Of a stretch of 64,000 nt of DNA, positions 15,293-50,623 are shown piece after piece. Position 1 is the stretch's first letter. Each line of letters begins with the position of its first letter. The stretch is from Roseivivax sp. GX 12232. GTDB taxonomy: Bacteria > Pseudomonadota > Alphaproteobacteria > Rhodobacterales > Rhodobacteraceae. The DNA is taken from NCBI RefSeq assembly GCF_021272185.1, contig NZ_JAJSEC010000001.1, positions 744,001 to 808,000 of the forward strand. Direction: 5' to 3'. A model generated the notes under the pieces. The model made no database searches. It saw only the letters and a program-made list of their open reading frames with translations, and had not been told where the DNA came from. Both the position numbers and the translations under genes were made by a program.

Positions 15293-15462
15293 ACCAGAGG
15301 GCGCGCGCCGGACCGGGGGTCGGCGCTACCGACCTCCGAGCGAGGCGCTTTATCCCAACAAGGTCAGGACAAGCGTCGATCTAAGCACGCCATCCCAAGG
15401 AGCGCCGGCCCAAGGCGCCGGTCCGGCGCGCGCCCGGCACCTTCGGTGCTATTCGGGCACAG
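15293..15462 (+). repeat. Structured intergenic repeat, copy A
   Basis: Full copy of the family. The left arm starts GGGCGCGCGCCGGACC at 15299. The core includes GCGCTTTATCCCAACAAGG. The right arm AGCGCCGGCCC...GGTCCGGCGCGCGCCC ends near 15435, followed by the small hairpin GCACC-TTC-GGTGC and ATTCGGGCAC. Its last bases differ slightly (GGGCACAG instead of GGGCGCAAG). Confidence 0.9.
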
Positions 15463-15612
15463 GTGGGCGCCCCGCTCTCCAAGGTCAGGGCAAAGACCAA
15501 GCCGGGGCGAAGCAGCGCCTGGAAGACAAGTGCAATCGCTTGGAACCGGGCGGACCACATGCGCAGGCTCCCATCCTCACCCAGCAGCCCCTACCCGCTC
15601 TCAACCCGCGCA

Positions 15613-15782
15613 ACGGAGGGCGCGCGCCGGACCGGGGGCCGGCGCTACCAACTTCTGAGCCAAGCGCTTTATCCCAAAAAGGTCAGGACTAGGTCTGATC
15701 TATGCGCGCCACTCTCAAGAGCGCCGGCCCATCGGGCCGGTCCGGCGCGCGCCCGGCACCTTCGGTGCTATTCGGGCGCAAG
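15613..15782 (+). repeat. Structured intergenic repeat, copy B
   Basis: Full copy, same orientation as copy A and offset from it by 319 bases (measured at the GGGCGCGCGCC of the left arm). Its right arm has the ATC variant of the inner bulge (GGCCC-ATC-GGGCC). It ends GCACCTTCGGTGC TATTCGGGCGCAAG. Confidence 0.9.
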
Positions 15783-16114
15783 AAAGGGGGCGTGTCCGCC
15801 GGTGCCGTGCCGGGGGTCTTGATTGTGAGGGCGGAAAGTCCTGAGCCGTCACCGACAGGGCAGCGGGGCGGCGGTGACGGGTCTGGGGAAGTTACGAAGA
15901 CAAACAATCAGTGATTGGTCCGAGGCAAAGGTCGGGGGGATCAAGCAGCAGAAAAGCAGGAGCGGGAAGGAGACGGCGGCATAACGCGATCCCAGCGGTG
16001 CAGCCCCCCACGCGACCCCGCACCACACCGCCGCCGCGGCAGCTCCGCATTGAACCTGCGCGCGCAACGGGATAGAGCAACGCGAACCTTCAACACGGAT
16101 GCCCGCGTGCCCTC

Positions 16115-16801
16115 GTGAAACGCCTCATCGCCCCGCTTCTCTTCGGCCTGATCGGCACCGCGATCCTGATCTCTCTCGGGGTCTGGCAGGTGCAGCGCCT
16201 GGCCTGGAAGGAAGGCATCCTGGCCCAGATCGAGGAGCGCATCTCCGGCCCCGCCGAGCCGCTGCCGCGGGTGGTCGACCCCGAGGCCCAGCGCTACCAG
16301 CCGGTCGCCCTCGAAGGCGAGATCGAGCCGGGCGAGCTGCACGTCCTCGTCTCGGTCAAGCGCCAGGGCCCGGGCTACCGCATCATCGCCCCCTTCGAGA
16401 CCGAGAACGGCCGCCGGGTGCTCGTCGACCGCGGCTTCGTGCCCGAGGCGGCCCGCGACGCCACCCGCCGCACCGGCCCGACGGAGGTCAGCGGCAACCT
16501 GCACTGGACCGACGACCGCACCTCCTCGACGCCCGAGAACGACGTCGAAGGCAACATCTGGTTCGCCCGCGACATCGCCCCTATGGCCGAGGCGCTCGGC
16601 ACCGAGCCGCTCCTGGTCATCGCCCGCGCCGAGACGCCGCCCGCCCCGGGCATCGCGCCTCTGCCGGTCTCGACCCAGGGCATCCCGAACGACCACCTGC
16701 AATACGCCATCACCTGGTTCTCGCTGGCCGCCATCTGGATCGCGATGACCCTCGCCTACATCCTGCGCGGCAGCTTCGCCCGAAAAGAGGTCCGGCCATG
16801 A
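16115..16801 (+). CDS. SURF1 family cytochrome oxidase assembly protein
   Basis: SURF1 proteins bind haem a and deliver it to subunit I of haem-copper oxidases. The 228-residue protein has the expected two transmembrane helices, one at each end (about 5-22 and 200-220), around a periplasmic domain. It shows GVWQVQRLAWKEG after helix 1, FVPEAARD, and the conserved NDHLQYAITWFSLA before helix 2. It starts with GTG, and the frame has no upstream in-frame ATG nearby. Its stop overlaps the thrC start (ATGA). It probably serves the aa3 oxidase encoded just upstream. Confidence 0.92.
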   Translation: MKRLIAPLLFGLIGTAILISLGVWQVQRLAWKEGILAQIEERISGPAEPLPRVVDPEAQRYQPVALEGEIEPGELHVLVSVKRQGPGYRIIAPFETENGRRVLVDRGFVPEAARDATRRTGPTEVSGNLHWTDDRTSSTPENDVEGNIWFARDIAPMAEALGTEPLLVIARAETPPAPGIAPLPVSTQGIPNDHLQYAITWFSLAAIWIAMTLAYILRGSFARKEVRP

Positions 16802-18186
16802 ACTACGTCTCGACCCGCGGCAGCGCGCCCGTCCTCGGCTTCGAGGACACCATGCTTTCCGGGCTGGCCCGCGACGGCGGCCTTTATGTCCCCGAGACCG
16901 TGCCGCAGATGAGCGCGGGCGACATCCGCGCCCTGCGCGGCCTCTCCTACGAGGAGCTGGCCTTCCGGGTCATGCGGCCCTTCGTGGCCGATGCCTTCGA
17001 CGACGCCACCTTCATGCGGCTGATCGAGAACGCCTACCGCGACTTCGGCCATGCCGCCCGCGCGCCGCTGGTGCAGCTCGGCCCCGGGCATTTCCTCTGC
17101 GAGCTCTTCCACGGGCCCACCTTGGCCTTCAAGGACTTCGCGATGCAGCTCATCGGACAGATGTTCGAGGAGGCGCTGAAGCGCCGCGGCGACCGGGTGA
17201 CCATCGTCGGCGCCACCTCGGGCGACACCGGCTCGGCGGCGATCGAGGCCTTCCGCGGGCTCGACGCGGTGGATGTCTTCATCCTCTTCCCGCATGGCCG
17301 GGTCTCCGAGGTGCAGCGCCGCCAGATGACCACGCCCAGCGAGGCCAACGTGCATGCCATCGCGCTCGACGGGCATTTCGACGACTGCCAGGCGCGGCTC
17401 AAGGACATGTTCAACCACTTCGAGTTCCGTGACGAGGTGCGGCTCGCCGGGGTGAACTCGATCAACTGGGGCCGGGTGCTGGCGCAGATCGTCTATTACT
17501 TCTCCTCGGCCGTGGCGCTCGGCGCGCCCGACCGCAAGGTCAGCTTCACCGTGCCCACGGGCAATTTCGGCGACATCTTCGCGGGCTATATCGCCAAGCG
17601 CATGGGGCTGCCGATCGACAAGCTGGTGGTCGCGACCAACCAGAACGACATCCTGCACCGCTGCCTGACCAGCGGCGCCTATACGACCGATACCGTAGCG
17701 CCCTCGATCTCGCCCTCGATGGACATCCAGGTCAGCTCGAACTTCGAACGGGCGCTCTTCGACGTCTACGGCCGCGACGGCCGGGCGGTGAGCCAGCTCA
17801 TGGAGGAGCTGAAGGCCGGCGGCTTCCACGTCAGCCAGGGCGCGCTCGAGGGGCTGCGCGCGCATTTCGCCTCGGGCCGCGCCTCCGAGGAGGACACCAG
17901 CGCCACGATCGCCCGCGCCCGCGCCACGATGGGCGAGCTTCTCTGCCCGCATAGCGCCGTCGGCGTGAAGGTGGCCGAGGAACACCTCGACCCCGCCGTG
18001 CCCATGGTCACGCTCGCCACCGCGCATCCCGCGAAATTCCCCGACGCGGTCGAGGCCGCCACGGGCCTCCGCCCGCCCCTGCCCGACCGCATGGCCGATC
18101 TATTCGACCGGCCCGAACGTGTCACGCGCGCCGAGAACGACCTCGCCGCGCTCGAAACCCTGGTAAAGGACCGCATCGCCCATTGA
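16798..18186 (+). CDS. thrC: Threonine synthase
   Basis: A PLP enzyme that converts O-phosphohomoserine to threonine. The 462-residue protein belongs to the long, yeast-like class. It starts MNYVSTRGSAPVLGFEDT. The PLP lysine lies in GPTLAFKDFAMQ, and the phosphate-binding stretch is VGATSGDTGSAAIEAF. It overlaps SURF1 by four bases and the M16 peptidase gene by four bases, so the three genes are translated as one unit. Confidence 0.96.
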   Translation: MNYVSTRGSAPVLGFEDTMLSGLARDGGLYVPETVPQMSAGDIRALRGLSYEELAFRVMRPFVADAFDDATFMRLIENAYRDFGHAARAPLVQLGPGHFLCELFHGPTLAFKDFAMQLIGQMFEEALKRRGDRVTIVGATSGDTGSAAIEAFRGLDAVDVFILFPHGRVSEVQRRQMTTPSEANVHAIALDGHFDDCQARLKDMFNHFEFRDEVRLAGVNSINWGRVLAQIVYYFSSAVALGAPDRKVSFTVPTGNFGDIFAGYIAKRMGLPIDKLVVATNQNDILHRCLTSGAYTTDTVAPSISPSMDIQVSSNFERALFDVYGRDGRAVSQLMEELKAGGFHVSQGALEGLRAHFASGRASEEDTSATIARARATMGELLCPHSAVGVKVAEEHLDPAVPMVTLATAHPAKFPDAVEAATGLRPPLPDRMADLFDRPERVTRAENDLAALETLVKDRIAH

Positions 18187-19445
18187 CCTACCGGATCACC
18201 ACGCTCCCCAACGGCTTCCGCATCGTCACCGAGAACATGCCGCACCTGAAATCCGCGGCGCTTGGCATCTGGGTCGGCGCGGGCGGACGGCATGAGCGCG
18301 CGGCCGAGAACGGCGTCGCGCATTTCCTCGAGCACATGGCCTTCAAGGGCACCGCCTCGCGCAGCGCGCTGAAGATCGCCGAGGAGATCGAGGACGTGGG
18401 CGGCTACATCAACGCCTATACCTCGCGCGAGACCACGGCCTATTTCGCCGGCGTGCTCGAGCCCGACGTGCCGCTGGCGCTGGACCTGATCGCCGACATC
18501 CTGCGCAATCCCGCCTTCGAGGACCGCGAGATCGAGACCGAGCGCGGCGTCATCCTGCAGGAGATCGGCCAGGTCCGCGACACGCCGGACGACATCATCT
18601 TCGACTGGCTGCAGGAGACCTCCTATCCCGACCAGGCCATCGGCCGTTCGATCCTCGGGCCGGTCGCCAATGTCTCGCGCTTCGGGCGCGACGACCTGGC
18701 GCGCTTCGTAGATGAACACTACGGGCCCGACCGGCTGATCCTCTCGGCGGCGGGCGCGGTCGACCATGACGCGCTGGTGGCCCAGGCCGAGGCGCTTTTC
18801 GGCGACCTTGCCCCGCGCCCGGCGCGCGACGCCGATGCCGCGCGCTTCCGGGGCGGCGAGATCCGCGAGGCCCGGGCGCTGGAACAGGCGCATTTCGCGC
18901 TGGCCTTCGAGGCCCCGGGCTACCGCGCGCCGGATTTCTTCGCGGCGCAGATCTACGCCACGCTCCTGGGCGGCGGCATGTCCTCGCGGCTCTTCCAGGA
19001 GATCCGCGAGCGCCGCGGCCTCTGCTACACGATCTTCGCCAATTCCGGCGCCTATGCGGACACCGGCACCACGACGATCTACGCCGGCACCTCGGCGGCG
19101 GAACTGCCGGGCCTCGCGCGGCTGACCATCGACGAGATGAAGCGCGCCGCCGAGGACATCGGCACCGCCGAGATCGACCGCGCCCGCGCCCAGCTCAAGG
19201 CGGGCCTGCTGATGGGGCTCGAAAGCGCCTCGGCGCGCGCCGAGCGGCAGGCGCGCATGGTGCAGATCTGGGGCCATGTCCCCGAGATCGAGGACACCAT
19301 CGCCCGCATCGACGCGGTGAGCCTCGCCGATGTGCGCGCCCATGCCGAGGAGATCGCCGCGCGCGCCCCGGCGGCGCTGGCGCTTTACGGTCCGGTCGAG
19401 GAAGCCCCCTCGCTCGAGACCCTGAACGCGGCCCGCGCCGCCTGA
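18183..19445 (+). CDS. M16 family zinc peptidase (processing-peptidase-like)
   Basis: A 420-residue pitrilysin-family protein with the inverted zinc motif HFLEHMAFKG (HxxEH) and the distal glutamate in ETERGVILQEI. The glycine-rich loop and the overall length match bacterial homologues of the mitochondrial processing peptidase beta subunit. It starts at TTG overlapping the thrC stop as TTGA. The order thrC-M16 peptidase-GNAT is common in Rhodobacterales. The natural substrate is not known. Confidence 0.93.
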   Translation: MTYRITTLPNGFRIVTENMPHLKSAALGIWVGAGGRHERAAENGVAHFLEHMAFKGTASRSALKIAEEIEDVGGYINAYTSRETTAYFAGVLEPDVPLALDLIADILRNPAFEDREIETERGVILQEIGQVRDTPDDIIFDWLQETSYPDQAIGRSILGPVANVSRFGRDDLARFVDEHYGPDRLILSAAGAVDHDALVAQAEALFGDLAPRPARDADAARFRGGEIREARALEQAHFALAFEAPGYRAPDFFAAQIYATLLGGGMSSRLFQEIRERRGLCYTIFANSGAYADTGTTTIYAGTSAAELPGLARLTIDEMKRAAEDIGTAEIDRARAQLKAGLLMGLESASARAERQARMVQIWGHVPEIEDTIARIDAVSLADVRAHAEEIAARAPAALALYGPVEEAPSLETLNAARAA

Positions 19446-20029
19446 TGCTGTCGCGCCGCCGGAAACTGCGCCTCGAGACCGAGCGGCTGACCCTGCGGCC
19501 GCCGGTCCATGCGGATTTCACCGGCTGGGCGGCGCTGCGCCAGGACAGCCGCGCCTTCCTGGTCCCCTGGGAGCCGACCTGGGCCTCGGACCATCTGACC
19601 CGGCGGGCCTTCACCAACCGGGTCTACTGGGCCAACCGCTCGATCGCCGGCGGCACCGCCGTGCCGGTCTTCCTGGTGCGCCGCGAGGACCAGATGCTGC
19701 TCGGCGCGCTGACGCTCGACAACATCCGCCGGGGGCCCGCGCAATCGGGCACGCTGGGTTACTGGATCGGCCAGCCCTTCGCCCGGCAGGGCTACATGCA
19801 GGAGGCGATCGAGGCCATGGCGCATTACGCCTTCGGCAAGCTCGACCTGTCGCGGCTCGAGGCCGCCTGCCTGCCCGAGAACGTCGCCTCGCGCGGGCTG
19901 CTCGAACGGTCGGGCTTCAAATACGAGGGCGTCGCGCAGAGCTACCTGCAGATCAACGGGCGCTGGCGGACGCATGTTCTTTACGCAAGTCTGCGCAGCG
20001 ACCGGCGCGGACGGACCCAGGTGGGCTGA
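19445..20029 (+). CDS. GNAT N-acetyltransferase, RimJ-like
   Basis: A 194-residue acetyltransferase of the RimJ/RimL type (N-terminal acetylation of ribosomal proteins, or other amines). Evidence: LRLETERLTLRPPVHADF at the start, the acetyl-CoA loop GYWIGQPFARQGYMQEAI, and the C-terminal LEAACLPENVASRGLLERSGFKYEG. It overlaps the M16 peptidase stop by one base (TGATG), forming the end of the thrC operon. The specific acceptor cannot be read. Confidence 0.9.
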   Translation: MLSRRRKLRLETERLTLRPPVHADFTGWAALRQDSRAFLVPWEPTWASDHLTRRAFTNRVYWANRSIAGGTAVPVFLVRREDQMLLGALTLDNIRRGPAQSGTLGYWIGQPFARQGYMQEAIEAMAHYAFGKLDLSRLEAACLPENVASRGLLERSGFKYEGVAQSYLQINGRWRTHVLYASLRSDRRGRTQVG

Positions 20030-20094
20030 CCTCGCGCTGACGTGACCCCGGGACGGCAGGGCTGTGCTAGCCTCGCGCCCAGGAGGTCCCGCCC

Positions 20095-21285
20095 ATGTTC
20101 CGCATCATCGCCGCGCTTGTCCTGAGCGCCCTGCCCGCCCTCGCCACCGCCCAGGACGCCGACCGCCGGCCCTCGCATTGCATCGCGCTGGCCGAGGCCG
20201 CGCCGGGGGTGTCGTATCTGCAGCAGGCGGGGGTTTCTGCGCCAGAACGGCTTGGGGGCGTGGGGGCGTCCGGGGGGCTTTGGTCGGGCGGCTCTGGGGC
20301 GGCGGGGTTTGGCGGTTCGGCTCCGGGGCATGGGGCGGGCAGTTCTCTAGTGCCTGCTGGTTTTGCGGGTCCGGCTGTCGCGTTGGGTTCGGTTGGCTCT
20401 CAGGCCGTGATCGCCCGCGCTGACCCCGCCGAGAGTCGTTTCGCTTCTGCGCGCCTGTCCGCAAATGGCCCCGCCGTCACGCCTCAGCCCGCGCCGCCTC
20501 TGGCCCTTGAGGCCGCCGCATACGCTTCCCCCATTGCAACCCGCGCGCCCCGCAGTGCCGCCGCCGCGCAAAGCCCTACCAAAGCGAACTGGCAGGCGCC
20601 CGTCCCGGAATACTCGGTCCGGCTGCATTACATCAGCCATGCCTCCTTCCTTCTGCAGACCCGCGGCGGGCTCAACGCCGTCACCGATTTCACCGGCTTC
20701 ATCGGCAACACCACGCTCCTGCCCGACGTGGTCACCATGAACCACGCCCATTCCACCCATTGGACCGCCAATCCCGACCCCGCGATCCCGCATGTCCTGC
20801 CGGGCTGGAGCGAGAGCTTCGGCACGCCCGTCCGCCATCACCTCGATCTCGGCGAGATGCTGGTGCGCAACGTCTCGACCGACATCCGCTCGGCCTTCGG
20901 CGGACGCGAGGACAACGGCAATTCGATCTTCATCTTCGAGGTCGAGGGCCTCTGCATCGGCCACCTCGGCCATCTGCACCACGAGCCCAGCCCCCAGCAA
21001 TACGCCACCATCGGCCGGCTCGACGTGGTCATGGTCCCGGTCGACGGCGGCTACACCATGGCGCGCACCAACATGATCAACGTGCTGGAGCGCCTGAAGA
21101 GCCGGGTGATCGTGCCGATGCACTGGTTCTCCGGGCTGGCGCTCGAGGCCTTCCTCGAGGAGATCGGCCCCGGTTTCGCGGTGGAGCGCGTCGAGGGCCC
21201 GAGCCTGGAGGTCTCGCTCGCCACCCTGCCCGAGCGTCCGACGATCATGGTGCTGCGCCCGGAGTTGTTGAGGGACCCGGGGTGA
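20095..21285 (+). CDS. Secreted metallo-beta-lactamase-fold protein with low-complexity insertion
   Basis: A 396-residue protein with signal peptide (1-19, ending ALATA) and an UlaG-like MBL-fold domain from about residue 170. The metal motif reads NHAHSTHWT, so the usual HxHxDH has Thr in place of Asp; further histidines are in IGHLGHLHHEP and VPMHWFSG. Residues about 45-168 are a Gly/Ala/Ser/Pro-rich stretch between the conserved N-terminal RPSHCIALAEAAPGVSYLQ and PVPEYSVRLHYISHASFL, segments I would expect to be nearly adjacent in homologues. The frame stays open through it. A good AGGAGG precedes the start. Activity is unknown. Confidence 0.85.
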   Translation: MFRIIAALVLSALPALATAQDADRRPSHCIALAEAAPGVSYLQQAGVSAPERLGGVGASGGLWSGGSGAAGFGGSAPGHGAGSSLVPAGFAGPAVALGSVGSQAVIARADPAESRFASARLSANGPAVTPQPAPPLALEAAAYASPIATRAPRSAAAAQSPTKANWQAPVPEYSVRLHYISHASFLLQTRGGLNAVTDFTGFIGNTTLLPDVVTMNHAHSTHWTANPDPAIPHVLPGWSESFGTPVRHHLDLGEMLVRNVSTDIRSAFGGREDNGNSIFIFEVEGLCIGHLGHLHHEPSPQQYATIGRLDVVMVPVDGGYTMARTNMINVLERLKSRVIVPMHWFSGLALEAFLEEIGPGFAVERVEGPSLEVSLATLPERPTIMVLRPELLRDPG

Positions 21286-21538
21286 AGGGAGGTGGCGTGG
21301 GCCGTGGGGGGAGGATCGGTGGGTGTTGGGGCCTTGGCATGTGGCCCTCAATTGCAGCGCCTGAGAGCACTGCAATGACCAGCGCCCAGTCTTTCCCGAC
21401 CGGCACAACGCCGGAAGCGAATACTCCGACTTCGCCGCGACCAAGACCCACTGCCGTGCCTGTAGCTAAACCCAAAGCCCTCGCCGGCGCTCCATCCGAC
21501 GAACCAACGACGCAGCCCTCATCCTCTCATCCCTCCCC

Positions 21539-21708
21539 ACCAGAGGGCGCGCGCCGAACCGGGGGCCGGCGCCGCTGACCTCTGAGCGGCGCGCTTTATC
21601 CCAACAAGGTCAGGGCTAACGACAATCTATGCGCGCCACTAAAAGAGCGCCGGCCCAAGGGGCCGGTCCGGCGCGCGCCCGGCATCTTCGATGCTGTTCG
21701 GGCGCAGG
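21539..21708 (+). repeat. Structured intergenic repeat, copy C
   Basis: Full copy with two informative differences. The terminal hairpin reads GCATC-TTC-GATGC instead of GCACC-TTC-GGTGC, a paired change that keeps the stem. The left part can also form GCCGCT...AGCGGC. The left arm has one G-to-A change (GCCGAACC). Confidence 0.9.
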
Positions 21709-21858
21709 AAGGCGTGGGATGTCGACAGCAGGGTCAGAATGCCACCGAGGAAACACGGGGACCCCAAGGTCCGCCTAGATGAGGTCAAAGGACGCGCCAG
21801 TCTGTCCGGCAGCGCTGCCTGGCCACAGAGACCAACCCTCCCCCTCTCAACCCTCCCT

Positions 21859-22029
21859 ACCAGAGGGCGCGCGCCGGACCGGGGGCCGGCGCTGCCGCCC
21901 TCTGAGCTGCGCGCTTTATCCAGGCAAGGTCAGGACGAGCGGTGATCTTAGCGCCCCGCCCACAAGAGCGCCGGCCCATCGGGCCGGTCCGGCGCGCGCC
22001 CGGCACCTTCGGTGCTGTTCGGGCGCAAG
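21859..22029 (+). repeat. Structured intergenic repeat, copy D
   Basis: Full copy, same orientation as copy C and offset by 320 bases, almost the same spacing as A to B. Its core is more divergent (CTTTATCCAGGCAAGGTCAGG). It ends GGCGCAAG, about 140 bases before the next gene. Confidence 0.9.
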
Positions 22030-22169
22030 AGGGGCTCGGCCTCGATATGAGCCCTCCAGAGGCGACCATCAGGGCCCAGCGGCCCCGCCTGCACCCTCAC
22101 CCCCCACTGGCCCCCGGCCCGCCGCCGCGCTATCCCGAGGGGGCACGCAAGCCAGGAGACCTCCCGCCC

Positions 22170-24966: not shown

Positions 24967-24988
24967 CCCCGCCGCGTGACCGCGTAAG

Positions 24989-25330: not shown

Positions 25331-25366
25331 CGCCGCCGCCCGCCTGCGAGACGAAAGGAAGGCATC

Positions 25367-27827: not shown

Positions 27828-27831
27828 GGCG

Positions 27832-36839: not shown

Positions 36840-36916
36840 GGCGGAGTAGCTCAGTTGGTTAGAGCAGAGGAATCATAATCCTTGTGTCGGGGGTTCAAGT
36901 CCCTCCTCCGCTACCA
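36840..36916 (+). tRNA. tRNA-Met (CAT), elongator type
   Basis: A 77-base cloverleaf with encoded CCA. The acceptor stem GGCGGAG pairs with CTCCGCT (first pair G-U), the D arm is GCTC...GAGC, the anticodon stem GAGGA/TCCTT surrounds the loop ATCATAA (anticodon CAT), and the T arm carries GTTCAAG. The sequence resembles the elongator tRNA-Met of alphaproteobacteria rather than the initiator or the tRNA-Ile2(CAT). Confidence 0.93.
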
Positions 36917-37048: not shown

Positions 37049-37278
37049 TTAAATTGCAGATGATTACTGTCGCGCGCTGCGCGAGCCCGCGGGGCGTTCG
37101 GCGCCTCGCGGCGTGATCTGTCATGCCGTCGTCTCGCCACATGCCGAGCCCTCGGCCAAAGTCTGTAGCGCCCCTGCGCGACCCGTCGGTTCCCTCCACT
37201 ACCCCGCAACGGCGTCGCTATCTTCACCGTCTGACACCTGCGCAGGACCTCGGACACCCACCCCCTCTCACCCCGCAC

Positions 37279-37449
37279 ACCAGAGGGCGCGCGCCGGACC
37301 GGGGGCCGGCGCTGCCGACCTCTGAGCAAGGCGCTTTATCCCGGCAAGGTCAGGACTAGAGAATAGCTATGCGCGCCACCCCAAGGAGCGCCGGCCCAAG
37401 GGGCCGGTCCGGCGCGCGCCCGGCACCTTCGGTGCTGTTCGGGCGCAGG
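37279..37449 (+). repeat. Structured intergenic repeat, copy E
   Basis: Full plus-strand copy with intact arms, the AAG inner bulge (GGCCC-AAG-GGGCC), the core CTTTATCCCGGCAAGGTCAGG, and the terminal GCACC-TTC-GGTGC hairpin followed by TGTTCGGGCGCAGG. Confidence 0.9.
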
Positions 37450-37839
37450 TTGGGCTGCGGGTGGGTGATGTTGCGCGACAGGTGCGTCGGGGCGTGACGG
37501 TGGCGTCGGGGATGCCTGTGCAAGGGCGTCTGCCCTTCCGACGCAGCAATGGCCGCTGTCTTTCGACCGGGAAAGGGCAGCGCGAACGACGCTCGACGGG
37601 AACGACGCTCGATGGGGACAAGCCGCGCGACCGAACAGGCGGCCAGGCGGCCTGCCTCACCACCATAACCTCACCCCAAGCCTTCGCCCGCCATCCCTCC
37701 GCGCACCTCACCCGCCCCCCTTCTCGGCAATCCCCCGCTGACCCCGCGGCAGCGCATTGGAACTCACCCCCGGGGGGTCGCCCTTTCCCGGGCAGATGCC
37801 CCGACGGGCATAGGCAATGACGATCCGAAAGGAGCCAAC

Positions 37840-40335: not shown

Positions 40336-40338
40336 GAG

Positions 40339-41826: not shown

Positions 41827-41872
41827 GGAAGGGGCGACACCCCAGGCAGCCCGCAGGCCGGACGCTGGCCCC

Positions 41873-42556: not shown

Positions 42557-42654
42557 TGGGCGCTCTCCCGGGGAGGTTGGCTTGACGCGTCTCCGGGCCA
42601 TGGGTAAGCCACCGCGAACCCGTTTTCCAGCAGCTTCCAGCAGCGAGTGACCCC

Positions 42655-43686
42655 ATGTCCGAGGCGCCTTCCAACCTCGCCAATTTCGCCCCGCGCGTGT
42701 TTTCCGGCATCCAGCCCTCGGGCGGGCTGACGCTGGGCAATTACCTGGGCGCGATCAAGCGCTTCGTCGACATGCAGGGCGCGGATTACGAGACCATCTA
42801 CTGCATGGTCGACATGCATGCGATCACCGTCTGGCAGGACCCGGGCGCGCTGCGCCGCAACACCCGCGAGCTTTGCGCCGGCTTCATCGCCGCGGGCATC
42901 GATCCCGAGCAGTCGATCCTAGTCAACCAGAGCCAGGTGCCCGAGCACGCCCAGCTTGGCTGGATCTTCAACTGCGTCGCCCGCATGGGCTGGATGAAGC
43001 GCATGACCCAGTTCAAGGACAAGGCCGGCAAGAACGCCGAGCAGGCCTCGCTGGGGCTCTTTGCCTATCCCGCGCTGATGGCCGCCGACATCCTGGTCTA
43101 CCACGCCACCCATGTGCCGGTGGGCGAGGACCAGAAGCAGCACCTGGAACTGACGCGCGACATCGCGGCGAAGTTCAACCACGACTACGATGTGGATTTT
43201 TTCCCGCTGACCGAACCGGTGATCGAGGGGGCCGCGACCCGCGTCATGTCGCTGCGCGACGGCTCGAAGAAGATGTCGAAGAGCGATCCCTCGGACATGA
43301 GCCGGATCAACATGACCGACGATGCCGACACGATCGCCGCGAAGATCCGCAAGGCGCGCACCGACCCCGAGGCCCTGCCCTCCGAGGCCGAGGGCCTGAG
43401 CGAGCGCCCCGAGGCGCGCAACCTGGTGAACATCTACGCCGCGCTCTCCGATCAGACCGTGGCGGAGGTACTGGCGGAGCACGGCGGCCAGCAGTTCTCG
43501 GCCTTCAAGCCGGCGCTGTCGGAGCTGGCGGTCGAGAAGCTGGCGCCGATCTCCACCGAGATGGCGCGGCTGATGGAAGAGCCCGGCGAGATCGACGCGA
43601 TCCTCGCCCGCGGCGCCGAGCGCGCCCGCGAACGCGCCGAGCCGGTGCTGAAGAAGACCTACGAGATCATCGGCATGGTGCGCTGA
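42655..43686 (+). CDS. trpS: Tryptophan--tRNA ligase
   Basis: A class I aminoacyl-tRNA synthetase of 343 residues, the usual length. The HIGH-type motif is [10 protein letters not shown], preceded by FSGIQPSGG, and the KMSKS loop is [14 protein letters not shown]. Substrate-pocket segments ([29 protein letters not shown]) are typical of bacterial TrpRS. It is followed by a strong terminator, so it is a single-gene unit, and a deleted repeat copy lies just beyond. Confidence 0.97.
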
Positions 43687-43708
43687 ACCGAGGCTGAGGT
43701 GAGACGCG

Positions 43709-43737
43709 AAGGGGCCGGAGCGATCCGGCCCTTTTTT
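43709..43737 (+). terminator. Rho-independent terminator of trpS
   Basis: AAGGGGCCGG-AGCGAT-CCGGCCC followed by TTTTTT, 23 bases after the trpS stop. Confidence 0.9.
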
Positions 43738-43794
43738 GTTTGGGGCTTTCAGTCAGTTGAATGCCGGCGCCCCGTCCCGTCCCCTGCGCGCCTC

Positions 43795-43865
43795 CTTGCG
43801 CCCGAATAGCACCGAAGGTGCCGGGCGCGCGCCGGACCGGCCCCCGGTCCGGCGCGCGCCCTCTG
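43795..43865 (-). repeat. Structured intergenic repeat, copy F (internally deleted)
   Basis: Minus-strand copy of only about 70 bases: both outer arms and the terminal hairpin (GCACC-TTC-GGTGC) are kept, but the core between them is missing. The junction GGACCGGGGGCCGGTCC fits a deletion between the GGGGCCGG words found in both arms of full copies. The result is a perfect 16-bp palindrome arm pair. Confidence 0.88.
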
Positions 43866-43905
43866 TTGCACGAGTTGCAAGGGGTGCGCGGCGCCCCCCC
43901 TCCCC

Positions 43906-44466
43906 TCACCGCCGGCTCGGCGTGTTGTAGCCCTTCCGGTCCAGGCAACGCTCGCCGTAGACCAGCCGCTTGCCGCGGGTGGTCTCGACGCGGAAGGCGC
44001 ATTGGCGCGGCAGGCTCTCGTGAGCGGCAAAGTTCCGCGCCAGGCAGCGCTGGGGGTAGACCACCCGGGCCCGGGGTTTGCCCGAGGTGTGGCGTTCACC
44101 GTCAAGCCGCACCCGGCATTCGGCGGGCAGCGTCGCGGCCCAGTGGTTCTCGGCCCAGCGGTCGTGGCGGTGGCTGTGGTCGCGGCGGTGCTGATGCGCG
44201 CCGTAACCCTCGTGGCGATGGGTGTAATAGGGCGATGCATGCCCGTGCTTGGCCTGGCTGGCCTTGGCCTTGGCCTTCGCCTTCTCTTTCTTCTTGTCCT
44301 TCTCGCGGTCGGCCTCGGCCGAGAGCGCCTCTCCGACGATATATAGAAGCGCGATGCCGCCGACGATCTTGGCGATATCCTGGGTCTGATCGGCGCGGGC
44401 CCCGCTGGCCGAGGCGGCGATGGCGGTGCTGGCGGCCAGGATCAGGGCGATGAAACGGCGGGACAT
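43906..44466 (-). CDS. Exported His- and Lys-rich protein of unknown function
   Basis: A 186-residue protein with a signal peptide (MSRRFIALILAASTAIAASASGARA). A hydrophobic stretch (IAKIVGGIALLYIVGEAL, about 30-48) is followed by a Lys/Ala-rich charged run (EKDKKKEKAKAKAKASQAKHG) and a His-rich segment (about 82-112). The C-terminal domain has four cysteines in a regular pattern (AECRV, QRCLARNF, RQCAFRV, ERCLDRKGY), likely two disulphides. The His-rich part might bind metal. A ribosome site AGAGGAGACC precedes the start. Confidence 0.75.
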   Translation of the reverse strand: MSRRFIALILAASTAIAASASGARADQTQDIAKIVGGIALLYIVGEALSAEADREKDKKKEKAKAKAKASQAKHGHASPYYTHRHEGYGAHQHRRDHSHRHDRWAENHWAATLPAECRVRLDGERHTSGKPRARVVYPQRCLARNFAAHESLPRQCAFRVETTRGKRLVYGERCLDRKGYNTPSRR

Positions 44467-44679
44467 GGCAGGTCTCCTCTCTAGCGGTCGGATCGGATGG
44501 CGGCCCCCGAAGCGCCCGCGCCGGACAGGTGACGCGTCAGGACGCCTGGGGGCCGCCACCGAGAAGGATCCGCCCGCTCCCGGCGGTCAGGCAATGTCCG
44601 GGTCGAGGTTATCACATATCGCCCCGCCGCCGCCCTGCGGTTATTGATCGACCGCGCGCGCCGGGTCACTCTCGGGCCC

Positions 44680-44964
44680 ATGAAAACCGTCCTTCCCCTC
44701 CTTCTTGCGCTGGCCATGGCGCCGGCAGCCGCCGAGGCGGCCTGCTACGCCGACTACAAGGCCAAGCGCGAGGACCCGCTGCGCCTGCACTACGGCGTCG
44801 CCGAGGTCCCCGATGATGCCTGTTCGCGCGATGGCGCGGCCAGCGCCCTGGCGCCGCGGCTCGACCGCGCGGGCTGGACCCTCTTGAACATTGTCTCGAC
44901 CTTCGGCGAAGAGGGTCTCGAGGAAAGGAAGGACAGTGCCGGACAACACTTTCTCCGTTACTGA
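44680..44964 (+). CDS. Small exported protein of unknown function
   Basis: A 94-residue protein with signal peptide (MKTVLPLLLALAMAPAAAEA) and two cysteines in the mature part (ACYADYKAKREDPLRLHYG, DDACSRDGAA). The conserved-looking tail GWTLLNIVSTFGEEGLEERKDSAGQHFLRY suggests a compact fold; I do not recognise a family beyond hypothetical Rhodobacterales proteins. Its end overlaps the start of the next gene by 29 bases, so the two are translationally linked. Confidence 0.75.
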   Translation: MKTVLPLLLALAMAPAAAEAACYADYKAKREDPLRLHYGVAEVPDDACSRDGAASALAPRLDRAGWTLLNIVSTFGEEGLEERKDSAGQHFLRY

Positions 44965-45640
44965 GGCGCGCCGCTCGGGCGCGCGGGTGGTGGGTTTCGG
45001 CATCGCCGCGATCCTGCTTCTCCTGATCGTGGCCGGGGTCTGGCTTTTCGCCACCCTGCCCGACGCGGGCGCCTTCAACGACCGGGTGGAGCGGCTCTTC
45101 ATCGAGAACGACGACCTGACCGCCCAGGCCGAGATCAAGCTCCTGGAGATCCTCGCCCAGTCGGGCACCGCCTTCGCGGAGACGCTCGAGAGCTACCGAG
45201 TGACGATCTTCGTGCTGCTGATCTTCGCCACCGCCCTCCTGATGACCGCGCTGGTGTCGCTGGTCATGCTGGTGGGGCTGAACCGGCGCATGGCGGCGAT
45301 CGAACGCTCGGGCATCGAGGTCCGCTCGCTGATCATCAGCCGCAGCGAGAACACGGTCTATCTCAACACCATGGGCTTCAAGCTGACCGAGGCGATGATG
45401 GAGACCCTGGCGATCCTGGCCGAGGCGCGGCTCGACGAGGAGATGCTGACCGGCACCCAGATCGAGGCGATGATCTCGGGGCGCGACGAATCCGACTGCG
45501 AGGAGGCGGCGGGCGCGACCCGGGTGAAACGCCTCCGCGACGGGCTCGGCAACCAGCTGGTGAGCGAGCTTCTGGTCAAGACCATCGCCAAGCGCGGCTA
45601 TGTGCTGGCGGTCGACCGGGACGTGATCGAGGTGATCTGA
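44936..45640 (+). CDS. Membrane protein with C-terminal winged-helix-like domain
   Basis: A 234-residue protein. Two membrane helices (about 18-40 and 86-112) enclose a roughly 45-residue acidic periplasmic loop (AGAFNDRVERLFIENDDLTAQAEIKLLEIL), leaving both ends in the cytosol. The C-terminal part (about 130-234) resembles the winged helix of OmpR/ToxR-type regulators, with TRVKRLRDGLGN as recognition-helix-like segment and LLVKTIAKRGYVLAVD as wing. The GTG start at 44936 has AAGGAAGG upstream. A membrane-bound regulator that senses the envelope is inferred; the fold call is by eye only. Confidence 0.7.
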   Translation: MPDNTFSVTEARRSGARVVGFGIAAILLLLIVAGVWLFATLPDAGAFNDRVERLFIENDDLTAQAEIKLLEILAQSGTAFAETLESYRVTIFVLLIFATALLMTALVSLVMLVGLNRRMAAIERSGIEVRSLIISRSENTVYLNTMGFKLTEAMMETLAILAEARLDEEMLTGTQIEAMISGRDESDCEEAAGATRVKRLRDGLGNQLVSELLVKTIAKRGYVLAVDRDVIEVI

Positions 45641-46204
45641 GGCGGGCTTTGGTGGCCTGCGGGGGCTGGCGCGGCGGGAGGCCGGGCCGGGGTCAAGCGT
45701 TGTGGCCAAAGAGGGCGCGCGTTTGAGGGGCGGCTTTCGGCGCCGCCCTCCGCACCGTGGCCGGTGCCTCAGCTCCGCCAATCCTTGGAGCTGGCCCGGA
45801 CACCGGTTCTTCAAGACCCGGGGGCACCAAGGCGCGCGCCCCTCCTCTCGCCCCCGGCACCACAAGGCCGCCCGACGCCCCGCACCCTGCCCCATCCAAT
45901 TGCCTTATTTGCGCCACAATTTGCCACGTTTCCGCCACGATCTGCGGTTAACCATTTGTCAAAGATCAACAATCGGCCGGGGAAGCCGTGATCGCAGAGG
46001 CAAGGGTCAACAGCAGCGGCGTGCTTTTCGCACGCGGCGCCGCGCGGCAGGGCCGTCCGGCGCATATGACCGTAGGGGGCAGACCACACTCACCGCCCCT
46101 GATGCGCAAGCAGCCCCCCACACCCCGGACCGCGAGCAGAGGCCCCGAAGCGCACCCGCCGGATCACCCCGGCCAGGCGCCCGCGGGGTGAAAGGCCGGG
46201 CAGG
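45641..46204. other. Intergenic region upstream of the RTX protein gene
   Basis: About 560 bases. The first half is G/C-rich. An A/T-richer island (45900-45990) is the likely promoter zone and contains a near-CtrA box (45948-45962). The start codon at 46205 has only a weak ribosome site (GGGCAGG). No gene is seen. Confidence 0.6.
45948..45962. promoter_or_regulatory. Near-consensus CtrA box upstream of the RTX gene
   Basis: TTAA-CCATTTG-TCAA differs from TTAA-N7-TTAA at one position and lies about 240 bases before the RTX start in the A/T-richer island. Confidence 0.35.
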
Positions 46205-49200
46205 ATGGCGACGTATTCGGTAACGAGTTCCAACTACAACGACCCCAAGTTCTGGGGCTCGATCATCGAGACCGGCTCGGGCCATACGCTCGACTTCAGC
46301 GCCCTGCCCTCGGATTTCACCGTCTACCACGCCTATGGCGGCAACTACCTCTACATCCACGACGGCGACAGCTGGTTCACCGTGGGCTCGGGCGGCATCG
46401 GCGGGGTCGACGCGACGCTGGGCGGGCTGACCGGGCTGTCCTCCTTCACCAGCTACGCGGGCGGCGCGGGCGCGGACCTCTATGGCGGCTCCGACGCGGG
46501 CGAGCTGATCGAGGGCAACGCCGGCGACGACATCATTGACGCGGCGGGCGGCAATGACACCGTCTCGGGCGGCGCGGGCAACGACATCATCCTGACCAGC
46601 TCGGACGGCGGCCAGGGCGGCGGCACCCGCATCGACTGGAAAGCCGCGGGCATCGTCGACCGGGTGCAGGGCAGCTCGGGGCAGGACTATTTCACCTGGG
46701 CCGCCGCCGAGGGCAGCAGCACCACGCTGCGCCTCGGCCAGTCGCGCGACAGCGGCGAGGGCGACGGCCAGGCCGATTACGTGGTGGTCGAGACCACCAA
46801 TGAGACCGGCACGCTGACGCTGCACAACTTCGACTTCGGGCTCGACAAGATCGTCCTGCAGGAGGTCCCGGTCGCGGCCAAGCACTACGCGGGCGACGGC
46901 TACTACGAGGTCGCCCTGGCCTATGAAAACGGCAACGTCCAATCCTTCCTGATCTACAGCGACGACCGCGGCGCCGACCTGCGCGAGGCTTTCACCACCG
47001 AGATGCCGCTGGAACTGGCGGGCGACCTGCTGATGGGCGGCGACGACGCCGACACCTTCCTGGCCAGCAATGATTTCGGCAATGACACGGTCATCGGCGG
47101 CGAGGGCGGGCGCGATTTCGACGTGCTCGACTTCTCGCTGGTCACCGACCCGGTGACGCTGACCTATACCGGCGACGAATCCGGCACGATCACCGATGGC
47201 ACCGACACGCTGAGCTTCTCCGAGATCGAGCGGGTGATCCTTTCCGATCGGGCCGAGACCATCGACGCCAGCGCCACCACCGGCGGCATCCAGATCGAGG
47301 CTGGCGGCGGCGCCGACCTGTTGCGGGGCGGCTCGGGCGACGACACGATCTACCTCGGCGACGGGGCGGATACGGTCGCCGCGGGCGCGGGCGACGACCT
47401 GATCGACGACATCGAGGGCGGGGTCACCAGCGGCACCCAGTGGATCGACGCGGGCCTCGGCGACGACACGGTGCTTTACGGCGGCGGCGACGACACGGTC
47501 TTCGGCGGCGAGGGCAACGACCGCATCGACGACGCCAGCGGCGAGCAGCACGCCGGGCGCAACCTGATCGACGGCGGCGCGGGCTCGGACACGATCTGGG
47601 CGGGGCACGATTCCGACACGCTGATCGGCGGGCTCGGGGCGGATTACCTCAGCGGCGAGCACGACGACGACCTCTTCATCCTCGAGGATGACTTCGGCGC
47701 CGACACGATCCTCGGCGGCAGCGGCGGCACCGACAGCGACACGGTGGATTTCTCGGCGCTGACCGGGGCCGTCACGGTGACCTATTCGGGCAACGAGGCG
47801 GGCGCCTTCAGCGCCGGCAGCGACCGCGCCAGCTTCTCCGACATCGAAGCCTTCACTTTGACCGGCTTCGACGACCGCATCGACGCCACCGCCACGACCC
47901 GCGGCATCCGCGTGGCTGAGAGCGCCGGCAACGACGTGGTGCTGGGCGGCAGCGGCGGCGACACGATCTGGGGCGGCGAGGGCTCGGACTACATCGACGG
48001 CGGCGACGGCGACGACATGCTCTTCACCGGCACCGGCGAGGACACGCTGATCGGCGGCGCGGGCAACGACACGCTGTCGAACTCCTCGGGTGACGACAGC
48101 CTGGTGGGCGGCACCGGCGACGACAGCATCACCGCCACCGAGGGCGACGACACGCTCGAGGGCGGCGAGGGCAGCGACACCATGCACGGCGGCGCCGACA
48201 ACGACCGGCTGGTCGGCGGGCGCGGCGCGGACAGCATGACCGGCGACGGAGGCTCGGACACCTTCATCATCGAGGACGGCTTCGGCGCCGACACCATCGA
48301 GGGCGGCGAGACCGGCTCGGATGTCGACATGATCGACCTCTCGGCGCTCTCGGGGCCGGTCACGGTCACCTACACCGGCGACGAGGCCGGGACGATCACC
48401 GATGGCACCGACACGCTGAGCTTCACCGGGATCGAGCGGCTCAGGCTCACCGATCACGACGATTCCGTCGATGCCAGCGCCCAGCCCACCGCCGGCGCCT
48501 GGGTCGAGATGGGCGGCGGCAACGACAGTTTCACCGCCGACCAGAGCCGCGACTCCGCCCAGCAGGACACGGTCTTCGGCGGCTCCGGCAATGACACGAT
48601 CTCGACCGGCGCGGGCGAGGATTCGATCGAGGGCGGCAGCGGCGACGACAGCATCGACGGCGGCGACCGCGGCGACACGATCTTCGGCGGCGCCGGCAAC
48701 GACCGGATCGAGGCGGGCGAGGAATATGCCCAGGGCGACAGCGACCTGATCCTCGGCGGTGACGGCAACGACACGATCACCTCGGCCGAGACCGACGCCG
48801 GCTCGCAGGACACGATCTACGGCGAGGCCGGCGCGGATTCGATCTCGGTCACCGGCGGCGACCGCAACTTCCTCGATGGCGGGGCGGACAACGACACGAT
48901 CGTCAGCGGCACCGGCAACGACACGCTCTCGGGCGATGCGGGCGACGACCTCCTGACCGGCGGGGCGGGGGACGACGCGCTCTCGGGCGGCACCGGCAAC
49001 GACGTCTTCACCTATGCCGCGGGCGACGGCAGCGACACGATCAACGATTTCAACACCGGCAACACCGGCGGGCTCGAGGACGGCGACAGCGCCAACAACG
49101 ACTTCATCGACCTCTCGGGCTATTACGACCACATCTCCGAGCTCTACGCCGACCAGGCCGACGACGGGGTGCTGAACCAGTCCAACGCCGCGGATTCCCG

Positions 49201-49894
49201 CGGCCAGGCGGTGGATTACTCCGACAACAGCCAGTTCGGCACCGGCAGTCTGACCTTCAAGGGCGCCAGCGCCGACCGCTCCTATTACACCGCCGAGAAC
49301 ACCGGCGTGGTCTGTTTCACCACCGGCACGCTGATCCGCACCGCGCGGGGCGAGGTGCCGATCGAGGCGCTGCGGCCGGGCGACCGGGTGGAGACGCTCG
49401 ACAACGGGCTGCAGGAGGTGCTCTGGATCGGGCGGCGCCATCTCGGCAAGCGCAAGCTCGCCCATGCGCCGCAATTGCTGCCGGTGGAGATCGCGCCGGG
49501 GCTCTCGGGCGGCACTGCGCCGCTGGTGGTCTCGCCGCAGCACGGGGTGGTGCTGCGCCAGGACGGCGAGGACATCCTGATGCGCGCCACGCATCTGGCG
49601 CGGCTCGACGGCGGCCAGGCGCGGGTGATGAACGGCTGCCGCGCGGTGACCTACTACCACCTGATGTGCGCCCGCCACGAGGTGATCTTCGCCAATGGCG
49701 CGCCGTCGGAGAGCTTCTACCCCGGCCCGCTGGCCCTGGGCGCCCTCGCCGCGCCGATCCGGGCGGAACTGGGGATCCTGTTCCCCGAGATGCTCGGCCG
49801 AGCGCCTGACAGCTGGTACGGCGAGAGCGCCCGGCCCTACAGCCGGATGGGCGCCCTGCCCGAGCATCTGAAGGCACTGACGCCGGCGGCGTGA
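46205..49894 (+). CDS. RTX-repeat protein with C-terminal Hint domain
   Basis: A 1229-residue, very acidic protein with no Sec signal, expected to leave the cell by type I secretion. Residues about 80-130 and 280-960 carry many calcium-binding GGxGxDxx nonapeptides. Between them, three related modules (from about 288, 493 and 688) share TLTYTGDEAGTITDGTDTLSF-like cores and IDASATT. From Cys1037 (VVCFTTGTLIRTARG) to about 1185 there is a Hint_2-type domain with MRATHLARL and HEVIFANGAPSESF. It resembles the Hint-RTX proteins common in Rhodobacterales; the target and any self-cleavage are unknown. No transporter genes are nearby. Confidence 0.88.
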   Translation: MATYSVTSSNYNDPKFWGSIIETGSGHTLDFSALPSDFTVYHAYGGNYLYIHDGDSWFTVGSGGIGGVDATLGGLTGLSSFTSYAGGAGADLYGGSDAGELIEGNAGDDIIDAAGGNDTVSGGAGNDIILTSSDGGQGGGTRIDWKAAGIVDRVQGSSGQDYFTWAAAEGSSTTLRLGQSRDSGEGDGQADYVVVETTNETGTLTLHNFDFGLDKIVLQEVPVAAKHYAGDGYYEVALAYENGNVQSFLIYSDDRGADLREAFTTEMPLELAGDLLMGGDDADTFLASNDFGNDTVIGGEGGRDFDVLDFSLVTDPVTLTYTGDESGTITDGTDTLSFSEIERVILSDRAETIDASATTGGIQIEAGGGADLLRGGSGDDTIYLGDGADTVAAGAGDDLIDDIEGGVTSGTQWIDAGLGDDTVLYGGGDDTVFGGEGNDRIDDASGEQHAGRNLIDGGAGSDTIWAGHDSDTLIGGLGADYLSGEHDDDLFILEDDFGADTILGGSGGTDSDTVDFSALTGAVTVTYSGNEAGAFSAGSDRASFSDIEAFTLTGFDDRIDATATTRGIRVAESAGNDVVLGGSGGDTIWGGEGSDYIDGGDGDDMLFTGTGEDTLIGGAGNDTLSNSSGDDSLVGGTGDDSITATEGDDTLEGGEGSDTMHGGADNDRLVGGRGADSMTGDGGSDTFIIEDGFGADTIEGGETGSDVDMIDLSALSGPVTVTYTGDEAGTITDGTDTLSFTGIERLRLTDHDDSVDASAQPTAGAWVEMGGGNDSFTADQSRDSAQQDTVFGGSGNDTISTGAGEDSIEGGSGDDSIDGGDRGDTIFGGAGNDRIEAGEEYAQGDSDLILGGDGNDTITSAETDAGSQDTIYGEAGADSISVTGGDRNFLDGGADNDTIVSGTGNDTLSGDAGDDLLTGGAGDDALSGGTGNDVFTYAAGDGSDTINDFNTGNTGGLEDGDSANNDFIDLSGYYDHISELYADQADDGVLNQSNAADSRGQAVDYSDNSQFGTGSLTFKGASADRSYYTAENTGVVCFTTGTLIRTARGEVPIEALRPGDRVETLDNGLQEVLWIGRRHLGKRKLAHAPQLLPVEIAPGLSGGTAPLVVSPQHGVVLRQDGEDILMRATHLARLDGGQARVMNGCRAVTYYHLMCARHEVIFANGAPSESFYPGPLALGALAAPIRAELGILFPEMLGRAPDSWYGESARPYSRMGALPEHLKALTPAA

Positions 49895-50623
49895 GGGGGG
49901 TGGTTGAGGCAAGCGGTGGGGCGCCGGTTGGCCTTTGGCGGGTCGCTTGCCCCCGGGTGCACCGCCGTTCTCTAGCCGACCCGCACGCCCTCATCCAAAC
50001 AACTCGAGACTCCCAGTCACCAAGGCGCCCCCCTTGCGCCCGAACAGCGCGCGACGGTCGAAGCCCCAGCCCACCCCCTTGCGCCCGAATAGCACCGAAG
50101 GTGCCGGGCGCGCGCCGGACCGGCCCGATGGGCCGGCGCTCCTTGGGATGGCGTGCTTAGCTCTTCGTTAGTCCTGACCTTGGTGGGATAAAGCGCACAG
50201 CGCGAAGCGTAGAAGCGCCGGCCCCCGGTCCGGCGCGCGCCCTCGGGTGGGGAGGTCGGGATGGAGCGGATGGCGCCGATGGGTGGTCCGTTCCAGTGCA
50301 GCACCTTCACCTTCCGGAGAAGCCCGTCGAGAGCATCCAGCCTCGGACCGGACGCCTATCCCGCTCAGAACACCTGCCCAACCGCGTGCGATAAGCCTGC
50401 CCAACGGCCCTCCCGGCGCCTCCCCGAGAGGGCTTTTTCGTTTCACGCTAACGGCTTGCGGATCCACCCATTGGGCGGATTTTGGGCGCCCGTGCCGTGA
50501 CATCTCGCGAAATTGCACGCCATACCGTGCTGCGCCGCAACATGTCGTGACATGCACGCTTTGCGAACACGCACGGCGAAACCCGCCGGGCCAGAAAATT
50601 CCTGTTACTTCTCAGCATCTTAA
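49895..50623. other. Intergenic region between the RTX gene and tRNA-Arg
   Basis: About 730 bases that hold repeat copy G (50078-50245), a stray copy of the repeat end (50033-50050) and, from about 50430, an A/T-richer segment. No terminator with a clear U-tract and no gene were found. Confidence 0.65.
50078..50245 (-). repeat. Structured intergenic repeat, copy G
   Basis: Full minus-strand copy: CTTGCGCCCGAATAGCACC at the low-coordinate end, both arms intact (ATC variant of the bulge), core CTTTATCCCACCAAGGTCAGG. The segment between left arm and core is the most divergent of the set (CTTCTACGCTTCGCGCTGTG). Confidence 0.9.

Follow-up and report, generated by a model that had tools for sequence, protein, structure and literature searches.

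Structured interspersed repeats are known as a kind. Among them, ERIC is a long imperfect hairpin of 127 nucleotides (nt) that is mostly intergenic and occurs in tens to hundreds of copies. Its copy number depends on the lineage, and an effect on upstream mRNA has been shown in Yersinia (PMC2229807, PMC10969869, PMC2267715, in the parts of these sources that were available). The family described here was found in a 64-kb stretch of the Roseivivax sp. GX 12232 genome (the whole stretch of 64,000 nt that was analysed is called the window). Its members have a core of about 170 nt that is predicted to fold into a long hairpin followed by a short one at the 3′ end. They are probably non-autonomous, interspersed structured elements specific to the Rhodobacteraceae, for which a mobiliser and a role at 3′ ends are proposed. 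Neither this family nor its head-to-tail doublets are covered by the described families that were tested.

Like ERIC, the present element is a long hairpin, intergenic and non-coding. Unlike ERIC, which has TA termini and target-site duplications in the available part of PMC2229807, it carries a second 3′ hairpin, a bulge and GC-rich arms, forms head-to-tail doublets and resides in another host family, the comparison being one of descriptions and not of sequences. YPAL/RU-2 of Yersinia resembles it in size (168 bp), in not being A+T rich, in lacking TA ends and in having internal inverted repeats and empty or filled sites; YPAL differs by target-site duplications of 3–26 bp and an open reading frame (ORF), while here no such duplication was detected, the host is another and the unit measures about 320 nt (PMC2229807, same part). 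The CIR repeats of Caulobacter and Brucella are likewise alphaproteobacterial, intergenic and marked by a conserved RNA fold and loop motif. Unlike the CIRs, which carry GANTC (PMC2229807, as available), the present family has this site in 0/57 copies from GX 12232, 2/20 from other genus members and 6/31 from the wider family, and membership in CIR was rejected. Base composition predicts about 25 GANTC sites in the 57 GX 12232 copies, all of which lack it; this may only reflect a general rarity of GANTC.

REP, BIME and REPIN repeats with their RAYT transposases also occur as hundreds of extragenic palindromic copies (PMC2817692, PMC3116915, available parts). They are 20–40 nt palindromes that alternate in orientation in BIMEs, in contrast to a 170-nt core whose 45 listed neighbouring pairs are all co-oriented, and no RAYT was found in the genus. 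REP repeats have a 3′-end bias. SPRITE is a structured interspersed repeat of about 100–200 nt. The same holds for Correia/NEMIS, RUP and BOX (PMC2229807, PMC3049150, in the parts available). The TA target sites of Correia and RUP set these two apart, and Correia/NEMIS, RUP, BOX and SPRITE live in other hosts and were compared by description, not by sequence.

The sequence-only reading from which this analysis started knew of no description of the family, and none was found in the literature searched, including the available parts of PMC2864571, PMC2267715, PMC10969869 and PMC2229807, which does not prove absence from print; in PMC3733652 and PMC2817692 the Rhodobacteraceae names searched for do not occur. 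Rfam release 15 matches only two tRNAs in the window at gathering score. A doublet of the element (15200–15800) gave one match at E ≤ 1, whose score of 17.3 bits falls far short of the gathering score of 70.

Architecture of the element

On the strand that carries its motifs, the element has the left arm GGGCGCGCGCCGGACCGG-GGGCCGGCGCT and, after it, a loop that measures about 75 nt and contains CGCTTTATCC and AAGGTCAGG and a near-invariant TTTAT motif. The right arm reads AGCGCCGGCCC-(bulge ATCGGG or AAGGGG)-CCGGTCCGGCGCGCGCCC; the bulge is 6 nt and not, as read earlier, 8 bases long. Downstream of it lie the 3′ hairpin GGCACC-TTC-GGTGC and TRTTCGGGCGCAAG. The motif strand is predicted to pair with itself over about 28 pairs into a long hairpin whose right arm bears an asymmetric bulge with GGG; the second hairpin, near the 3′ end, would have an unpaired, RTT-bearing bulge. 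A CGGGC in the region of the 3′ hairpin is able to pair with a GCCCG that is otherwise part of the long arm. The RNA fold of one element reaches −96.2 kcal/mol (z = −2.8), and a Salipiger copy has a similar z of −2.9.

Among 57 aligned full copies of GX 12232 (those above 100 bits from the window and from 33 loci around earlier matches, hence not a random draw), the arms are nearly invariant and the loop columns variable, with a mean column identity of 91%. The earlier remark that arms are kept and linkers vary thus extends to this larger set. TTTAT is followed by either CCC or GGC, and both types occur in GX 12232 and in the genus member G007, which looks like a persistence of two old loop types across species. 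Modules of the 3′ end also occur solo or in tandem, about 73 nt apart and without left arms (L023 2717–2903, L031 2108–2162). Extra right-arm hairpins are seen at nearly the same position in G008 (L077, ~1998–2027) and G007 (L056, ~5678–5715), and are absent from the ortholog of L077 in G005.

Conservation of the fold across species

The predicted long hairpin is held across species by compensatory change. In a MAFFT alignment that was not fitted to the structure (A2), both sides have changed in 10 of 32 pairs (36 cells). Shuffles yield 4.2 pairs and 7.5 ± 2.2 cells, and slid controls do not exceed 7 pairs and 8 cells. The alignment consists of 20 of the 27 cross-species copies collected with the regular expression CGCTTTAT/CACTTTATC, seven odd, truncated or second copies being excluded, and of 8 of the 57 GX 12232 copies; conservation of TTTAT in A2 is given by construction. 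A model-fitted alignment (A3) has 21 doubly changed pairs, a number that is biased by the fitting and includes antisense rows, and RNAalifold on a wide MAFFT set recovers the inner stem and a few pairs only. Selection on structure, as suggested by the sequence-only reading, is upheld by the compensatory changes in the long hairpin.

In individual resident copies, too, the arms and 3′ hairpin are better conserved between sister species than the flanks at both orthologous sites tested, so that conservation is not limited to the family consensus. At the first site (G005 and G008), the arms and 3′ hairpin are identical at 85/86 positions, the loop at 67/74 and the flanks, of which the left is partly coding, at 214/268 (p = 1.7e-6 for arms and 3′ hairpin versus flanks). 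At the second, the left arm is identical at 31/32, the 3′ hairpin at 27/29 and the right arm at 31/35 positions, next to which one species has a hairpin insertion of 25 columns; the loop stands at 56/73 and the flanks at 41/71 and 38/71 (79/142), with 85 gap columns. TTTAT is retained in 29 of the 31 family copies found by the covariance model, which was itself built from TTTAT copies.

Stem mismatches in the family sets are more often G·T than A·C (28:4 and 29:9). Counts in A3 cover the top 31 of 50 rows, the others being weaker antisense or partial rows. A4 covers 20 of 25 rows from loci collected with the TTTAT pattern, after exclusion of three rows of L124/L132 among the top 23 (duplicate A3 loci) and two weak antisense rows. 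Since G·T prevails over A·C in the family stems, the motif strand is likely the folded one, which points, not decisively, to folding of that strand as RNA or as single-stranded DNA.

Distribution and copy number

The GX 12232 assembly comprises 4,120,283 bases in 38 contigs. A 30-nt right-arm pattern with up to 3 mismatches matches it 106 times forward and 122 times in reverse, and a reversed control 0 times; the family is therefore not confined to the 35 kb over which it was first noticed but has 228 pattern matches genome-wide. The query of the GX 12232 type matches 6 of the 9 genus genomes by DNA, and the longer matches from the other genomes are 69–77% identical. Per genome, the eight other genus members have 0 to 50 BLAST matches, partial ones included.

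A covariance model built from 28 copies (E ≤ 0.001, only nine candidates scored per genome) has matches in 148 of 295 same-family genomes including GX 12232, tallied as 148 of 295 genera. The scan of relatives that had been proposed earlier thus finds copies well beyond one genome. In a class-wide draw of 289 genomes, the model matches two, both of the same family, and none outside the Rhodobacteraceae. Named records that carry the element belong to Salipiger, Tropicimonas, Alloyangia, Seohaeicola, Allosediminivita and uncultured Rhodobacteraceae, and two loci from the same family match Rhodobacteraceae HLUCCO18 and Seohaeicola zhoushanensis without a difference over 360 nt. Among plasmid records, those of Salipiger and Pacificitalea match over 84–89% of the query length and those of Leisingera and Sulfitobacter over only 30%; no phage matched in a search with one GX 12232 copy as query. 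A record titled Maritalea mobilis DP3N28-3 (L118) also contains a Rhodobacteraceae-type copy, and its name may be wrong.

Judged from these sequence matches, the family is specific to the Rhodobacteraceae and old, with a lineage-specific expansion in GX 12232. The recent spread suggested earlier holds for this expansion (228 matches here versus 0–50 in the eight genus genomes) and does not hold for the family as a whole, which is old and not only recent.

At least three copies are found no farther than about 160 nt from a contig end (end of C33, start of C12, end of C7). The repeat therefore probably breaks short-read assemblies.

The larger unit and head-to-tail doublets

In GX 12232 the core is embedded in a larger unit. 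Averaged over 50 left flanks, the skew of C over G is about −0.1 to −0.2 outside, flips about 100 nt out and reaches +0.65 beside the core; the C/T-rich left flank of the sequence-only reading is thus real and about 100 nt long on average. On the right (52 flanks averaged), the composition flips back about 55 nt from the core, and this wing is G-rich. Core, C-rich left wing and G-rich right wing add up to a unit of about 320 nt.

Neighbouring copies were surveyed by pattern-match and selected BLAST positions among the matches listed, a set that is near-complete, though not proven complete, and in which some BLAST-derived positions are off by up to 28 nt. About 227 GX 12232 copies among these matches form 45 neighbouring pairs less than 1500 nt apart, and all 45 listed pairs have the same orientation. 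The spacing is 253–371 nt in 44 of the 45 listed pairs and 155 nt in the remaining one, of which one partner matched only partly; no listed pair is spaced 372–1500 nt. Two modes stand out among these matches, one at about 262 nt (11 pairs within 253–268) and one at about 317 nt (21 listed pairs within 304–326, or about 23 once two positions are corrected). Spacers within doublets are G-rich at the start and C-rich at the end, which is expected of two abutting units.

In 5 of 13 doublets tested, the spacer has clear homology to an outer flank (the left one in L009, L016, L019 and L037, the right one in L014), which shows local tandem duplication in these five. The homology is borderline in L011 and L035 (L011 scores 54, which is above the 95th percentile and below the control maximum of 60) and at control level in 6 of the 13. 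Between doublet partners, the variable loops agree at 77.5% versus 73.2% in other pairs, and the arms at 98% in both. In other species, five full-length doublets were noticed (in G007 of the genus and in four other genera), co-oriented and 244–373 nt apart.

Gene context, termination and orientation

None of 108 copies (57 from GX 12232, 31 from the family and 20 from other genus members) overlaps an ORF called by a simple codon-usage gene finder, and the intergenic placement noted earlier is borne out by 0/57 among the GX 12232 full copies. These 57 copies lie at 22 convergent, 17 co-directional tandem, 7 opposed tandem, 7 divergent and 4 undefined positions. The corresponding numbers are 19, 6, 3, 1 and 2 for the 31 family copies (from 29 loci), and the 20 genus copies divide into 13 convergent, 1 co-directional tandem, 5 opposed tandem and 1 divergent. 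Convergent junctions are the commonest location, and copies lie mostly at gene 3′ ends. Gaps of at least 150 nt are convergent in 17/41 cases with an element versus 3/49 without, a baseline that covers only GX 12232 loci chosen around elements.

This placement fits a host-serving RNA element at mRNA 3′ ends, such as a stability or processing module or an RNA-binding site, that is spread by ordinary recombination and is not mobile. The two conserved orthologous copies and the G·T preference of the family also agree with it. Lineage-specific bursts and insertions of opposite orientation at one junction look mobile, however, and among the GX 12232 copies with both neighbours called, 7/53 are divergent and 7/53 are directed against both neighbours; this reading is less likely than not.

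The element could also be a bidirectional transcription terminator for convergent genes, given how common these junctions are. A T-rich stretch follows the antisense stem in 7/57 GX 12232 copies (0 shuffled) and 5/31 family copies (2 shuffled), which is slightly above shuffles. After the sense hairpin, it is found in 0/31 family, 1/20 genus and 2/57 GX 12232 copies, with 2, 2 and 0 in shuffles. Moreover, the element itself scores as an intrinsic terminator in 2/53 convergent gaps, whereas 20/53 have another site outside the element that resembles an intrinsic terminator (1.7 expected from shuffles); the element is thus not simply a terminator, and an intrinsic terminator was rejected. Rho prefers C-rich loading regions, which the left wing in GX 12232 resembles. 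Since this wing is confined to the GX 12232 lineage and absent elsewhere, Rho loading was rejected as a general feature, and a terminator is very unlikely on the whole. One long gap contains, besides an element, a 9-nt tandem repeat TCTGAAGGC of five units (L189 884–928).

BIMEs bind gyrase or IHF, and positive supercoils accumulate at convergent junctions. A topology or nucleoid site that acts as DNA, through gyrase or IHF binding for example, would agree with the near-constant doublet spacing and with a regional orientation bias in GX 12232, where neighbours are on the same strand in 91 of 149 cases (p = 0.0085). Orientation follows neither GC skew (rho −0.24, p = 0.36) nor gene strand (rho −0.45, p = 0.07) at significance in the 17 of 21 stretches with enough copies, though, and binding to a duplex needs no compensated single-strand fold. 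Little probability is therefore left to this reading. The orientation bias is found on contigs C22, C1, C2, C38 and C36; C22 has 18 minus and 4 plus copies with doublets collapsed (heterogeneity p = 0.006).

Gain, loss and mobilisation

Copies differ between species in presence. The window copy at 37279 is absent from the syntenic stretch of G002, in which the flanking matches are 198 nt apart versus about 910 nt in GX 12232. At one convergent junction, the stop codons are about 4 nt apart in G002, and G005 has a different gene and no element, while G008 carries an element and GX 12232 one in the opposite orientation. At this shared junction, the element was gained independently in G008 and GX 12232. 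Three more sites hold an element in G007 or G008 and none in GX 12232. Exact insertion junctions are not fixed because the interspecies gaps diverge.

A REP/BIME or REPIN system that is mobilised in trans by a RAYT (Y1/IS200-like) transposase would explain a short bulged 3′ hairpin, hundreds of intergenic copies and doublets. The Pfam domain Y1_Tnp (PF01797), however, matches 0 of 9 genus genomes, by which a RAYT mobiliser was rejected for the genus, and 3 of 28 carrier genomes, which were chosen (GX 12232, G007 and 26, not all, of those with the maximum of nine scored matches), compared to 5 of 14 control genomes. With doublets that are never inverted (45/45 listed) and a core of 170 instead of 20–40 nt, such a system is highly improbable. 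The likeness to REP, ERIC or MITE families seen by the sequence-only reading is accordingly retained for a dispersed repeat in general, and dropped for a RAYT-driven REP.

The rarity of Y1_Tnp, together with the lack of a visible target-site duplication at the core borders and of a composite copy in about 632 kb of GX 12232 sequence, favours a folded-strand element with another mobiliser and local duplication of the unit. Colonisation of new sites would be rare and would depend on an enzyme, other than a Y1/RAYT transposase, with specificity for the folded single strand, and most doublets would arise by local duplication of the ~320-nt unit. Resident copies may then persist because, once transcribed, they provide mRNA 3′ ends with a hairpin that protects them or serves their processing, a role that was proposed for ERIC and YPAL.

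Several results weigh against this explanation. No transposase or mobiliser was found. Direct repeats at the core borders show no excess over swapped controls, so that no target-site duplication is seen, with the unit borders being uncertain, and no composite of left half, ORF and right half occurs in about 632 kb of the 4.12 Mb of GX 12232. The query of the GX 12232 type matches nothing in 3 of the 9 genus genomes, and the C-rich wing, which is not seen in G007, other genus members or the family set, is therefore a feature of the GX 12232 lineage. For the 3′ hairpin and outer pairs in A2, the two doubly changed pairs are equalled in 125 of 500 shuffles and one slid control reaches three; the six doubly changed cells of this hairpin are reached by no control. 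RNAalifold on the GX 12232 copies finds only one doubly changed pair, and G·T and A·C are equally frequent in these copies (9:10, one constant G-T pair left out) and in the genus set (11:11). Copy-specific pairing between the two flanks was rejected (score 7.23 versus 7.36 ± 0.18 when swapped). Gene conversion, finally, could partly lie behind the conserved arms.

The last point is taken furthest by a reading without selection, in which arm uniformity comes from template switching at a quasi-palindrome and from gene conversion. Templated correction readily affects long inverted repeats that are rich in GC, and the copies share almost exact arms. Across genera, however, the bulge stays asymmetric and the 3′ hairpin one-sided, orthologous copies keep their arms while their loops diverge, and TTTAT is kept as described above; an origin of this kind is hardly probable.

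Alternatively, the element is a classical MITE of some DDE insertion sequence, with the arms as terminal inverted repeats, as its long inverted repeats, non-coding nature and presence or absence between species would suggest. Uncertain unit borders could hide target-site duplications, which at the core borders are not above controls. Beyond the arms, the conserved 3′ hairpin is present at just one end, and the ~632 kb contain no separated halves around an ORF. A MITE is rather unlikely on these grounds.

A more specific form of the folded-strand explanation holds that the elements spread without any known transposase, that a new unit is laid head to tail one unit length from a resident one, and that it is then kept by selection at gene 3′ ends as a working single-strand structure. 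Such placement of units would give the constant orientation and near-constant spacing of doublets even where the spacer lacks detectable homology; as a whole, this form is doubtful. The readings weighed here are not mutually exclusive, and their probabilities do not sum to one.

Copies in the window

All copies that had been read in the window were found, six of them at full length (Table 1). The count of seven stands if the loop-deletion derivative is included as the seventh, and the sixth full copy ends at 50248 instead of 50245. A decayed second 3′-hairpin tail follows the sixth full copy near 50044, and decayed tails are also found behind some other full copies. A tRNA-Met (36840–36916) and a tRNA-Arg (50624–50700) are each the immediate neighbour of an element copy. 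The long ORF at 46205–49894 (+) contains many 27-nt repeats that encode GGxGxD-type sequence, and its product is presumably RTX-like, as judged from this motif.

Table 1. Element copies and their parts in the 64-kb window.
Feature	Position	Strand	Remarks
Full copy 1	15293–15462	+	left arm 15299–15326; right arm with 6-nt bulge 15402–15435
Full copy 1, loop motifs	CGCTTTATCC 15346–15355; AAGGTCAGG 15360–15368	+	
Full copy 1, 3′ hairpin	starting 15436	+	GGCACC-TTC-GGTGC
Full copy 2	15612–15782	+	head-to-tail doublet with copy 1, spacing 319 nt
Doublet spacer, copies 1/2	15463–15611	.	149 nt; interpreted as the unit 1 right wing, then the C-rich left wing of unit 2
Full copy 3	21539–21708	+	
Full copy 4	21859–22029	+	head-to-tail doublet with copy 3, spacing 320 nt
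Full copy 5	37279–37449	+	tRNA-Met 363 nt upstream; syntenic gap of genus member G002 without copy
Left wing of copy 5 unit, C-rich	37180–37278 (approximate)	+	extent inferred from 50-flank average, not from copy 5 alone
Right wing of copy 5 unit, G-rich	37450–37505 (approximate)	+	extent inferred from 52-flank average
Deletion derivative	43795–43868	−	left arm fused to right arm, loop gone, 3′ hairpin retained; called convergent genes on either side
Full copy 6	50078–50248	−	between 3′ end of RTX-like gene and tRNA-Arg

Significance

The element occurs in about half of the genera sampled from a widely distributed and mostly marine family, and GX 12232 has hundreds of copies. The strict head-to-tail doublets, in the absence of a RAYT, call for a mechanism of spreading outside the usual REP model. 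With an ERIC-like family that allows one to measure how well single resident copies are conserved, the question of whether such elements are selfish or useful becomes testable.

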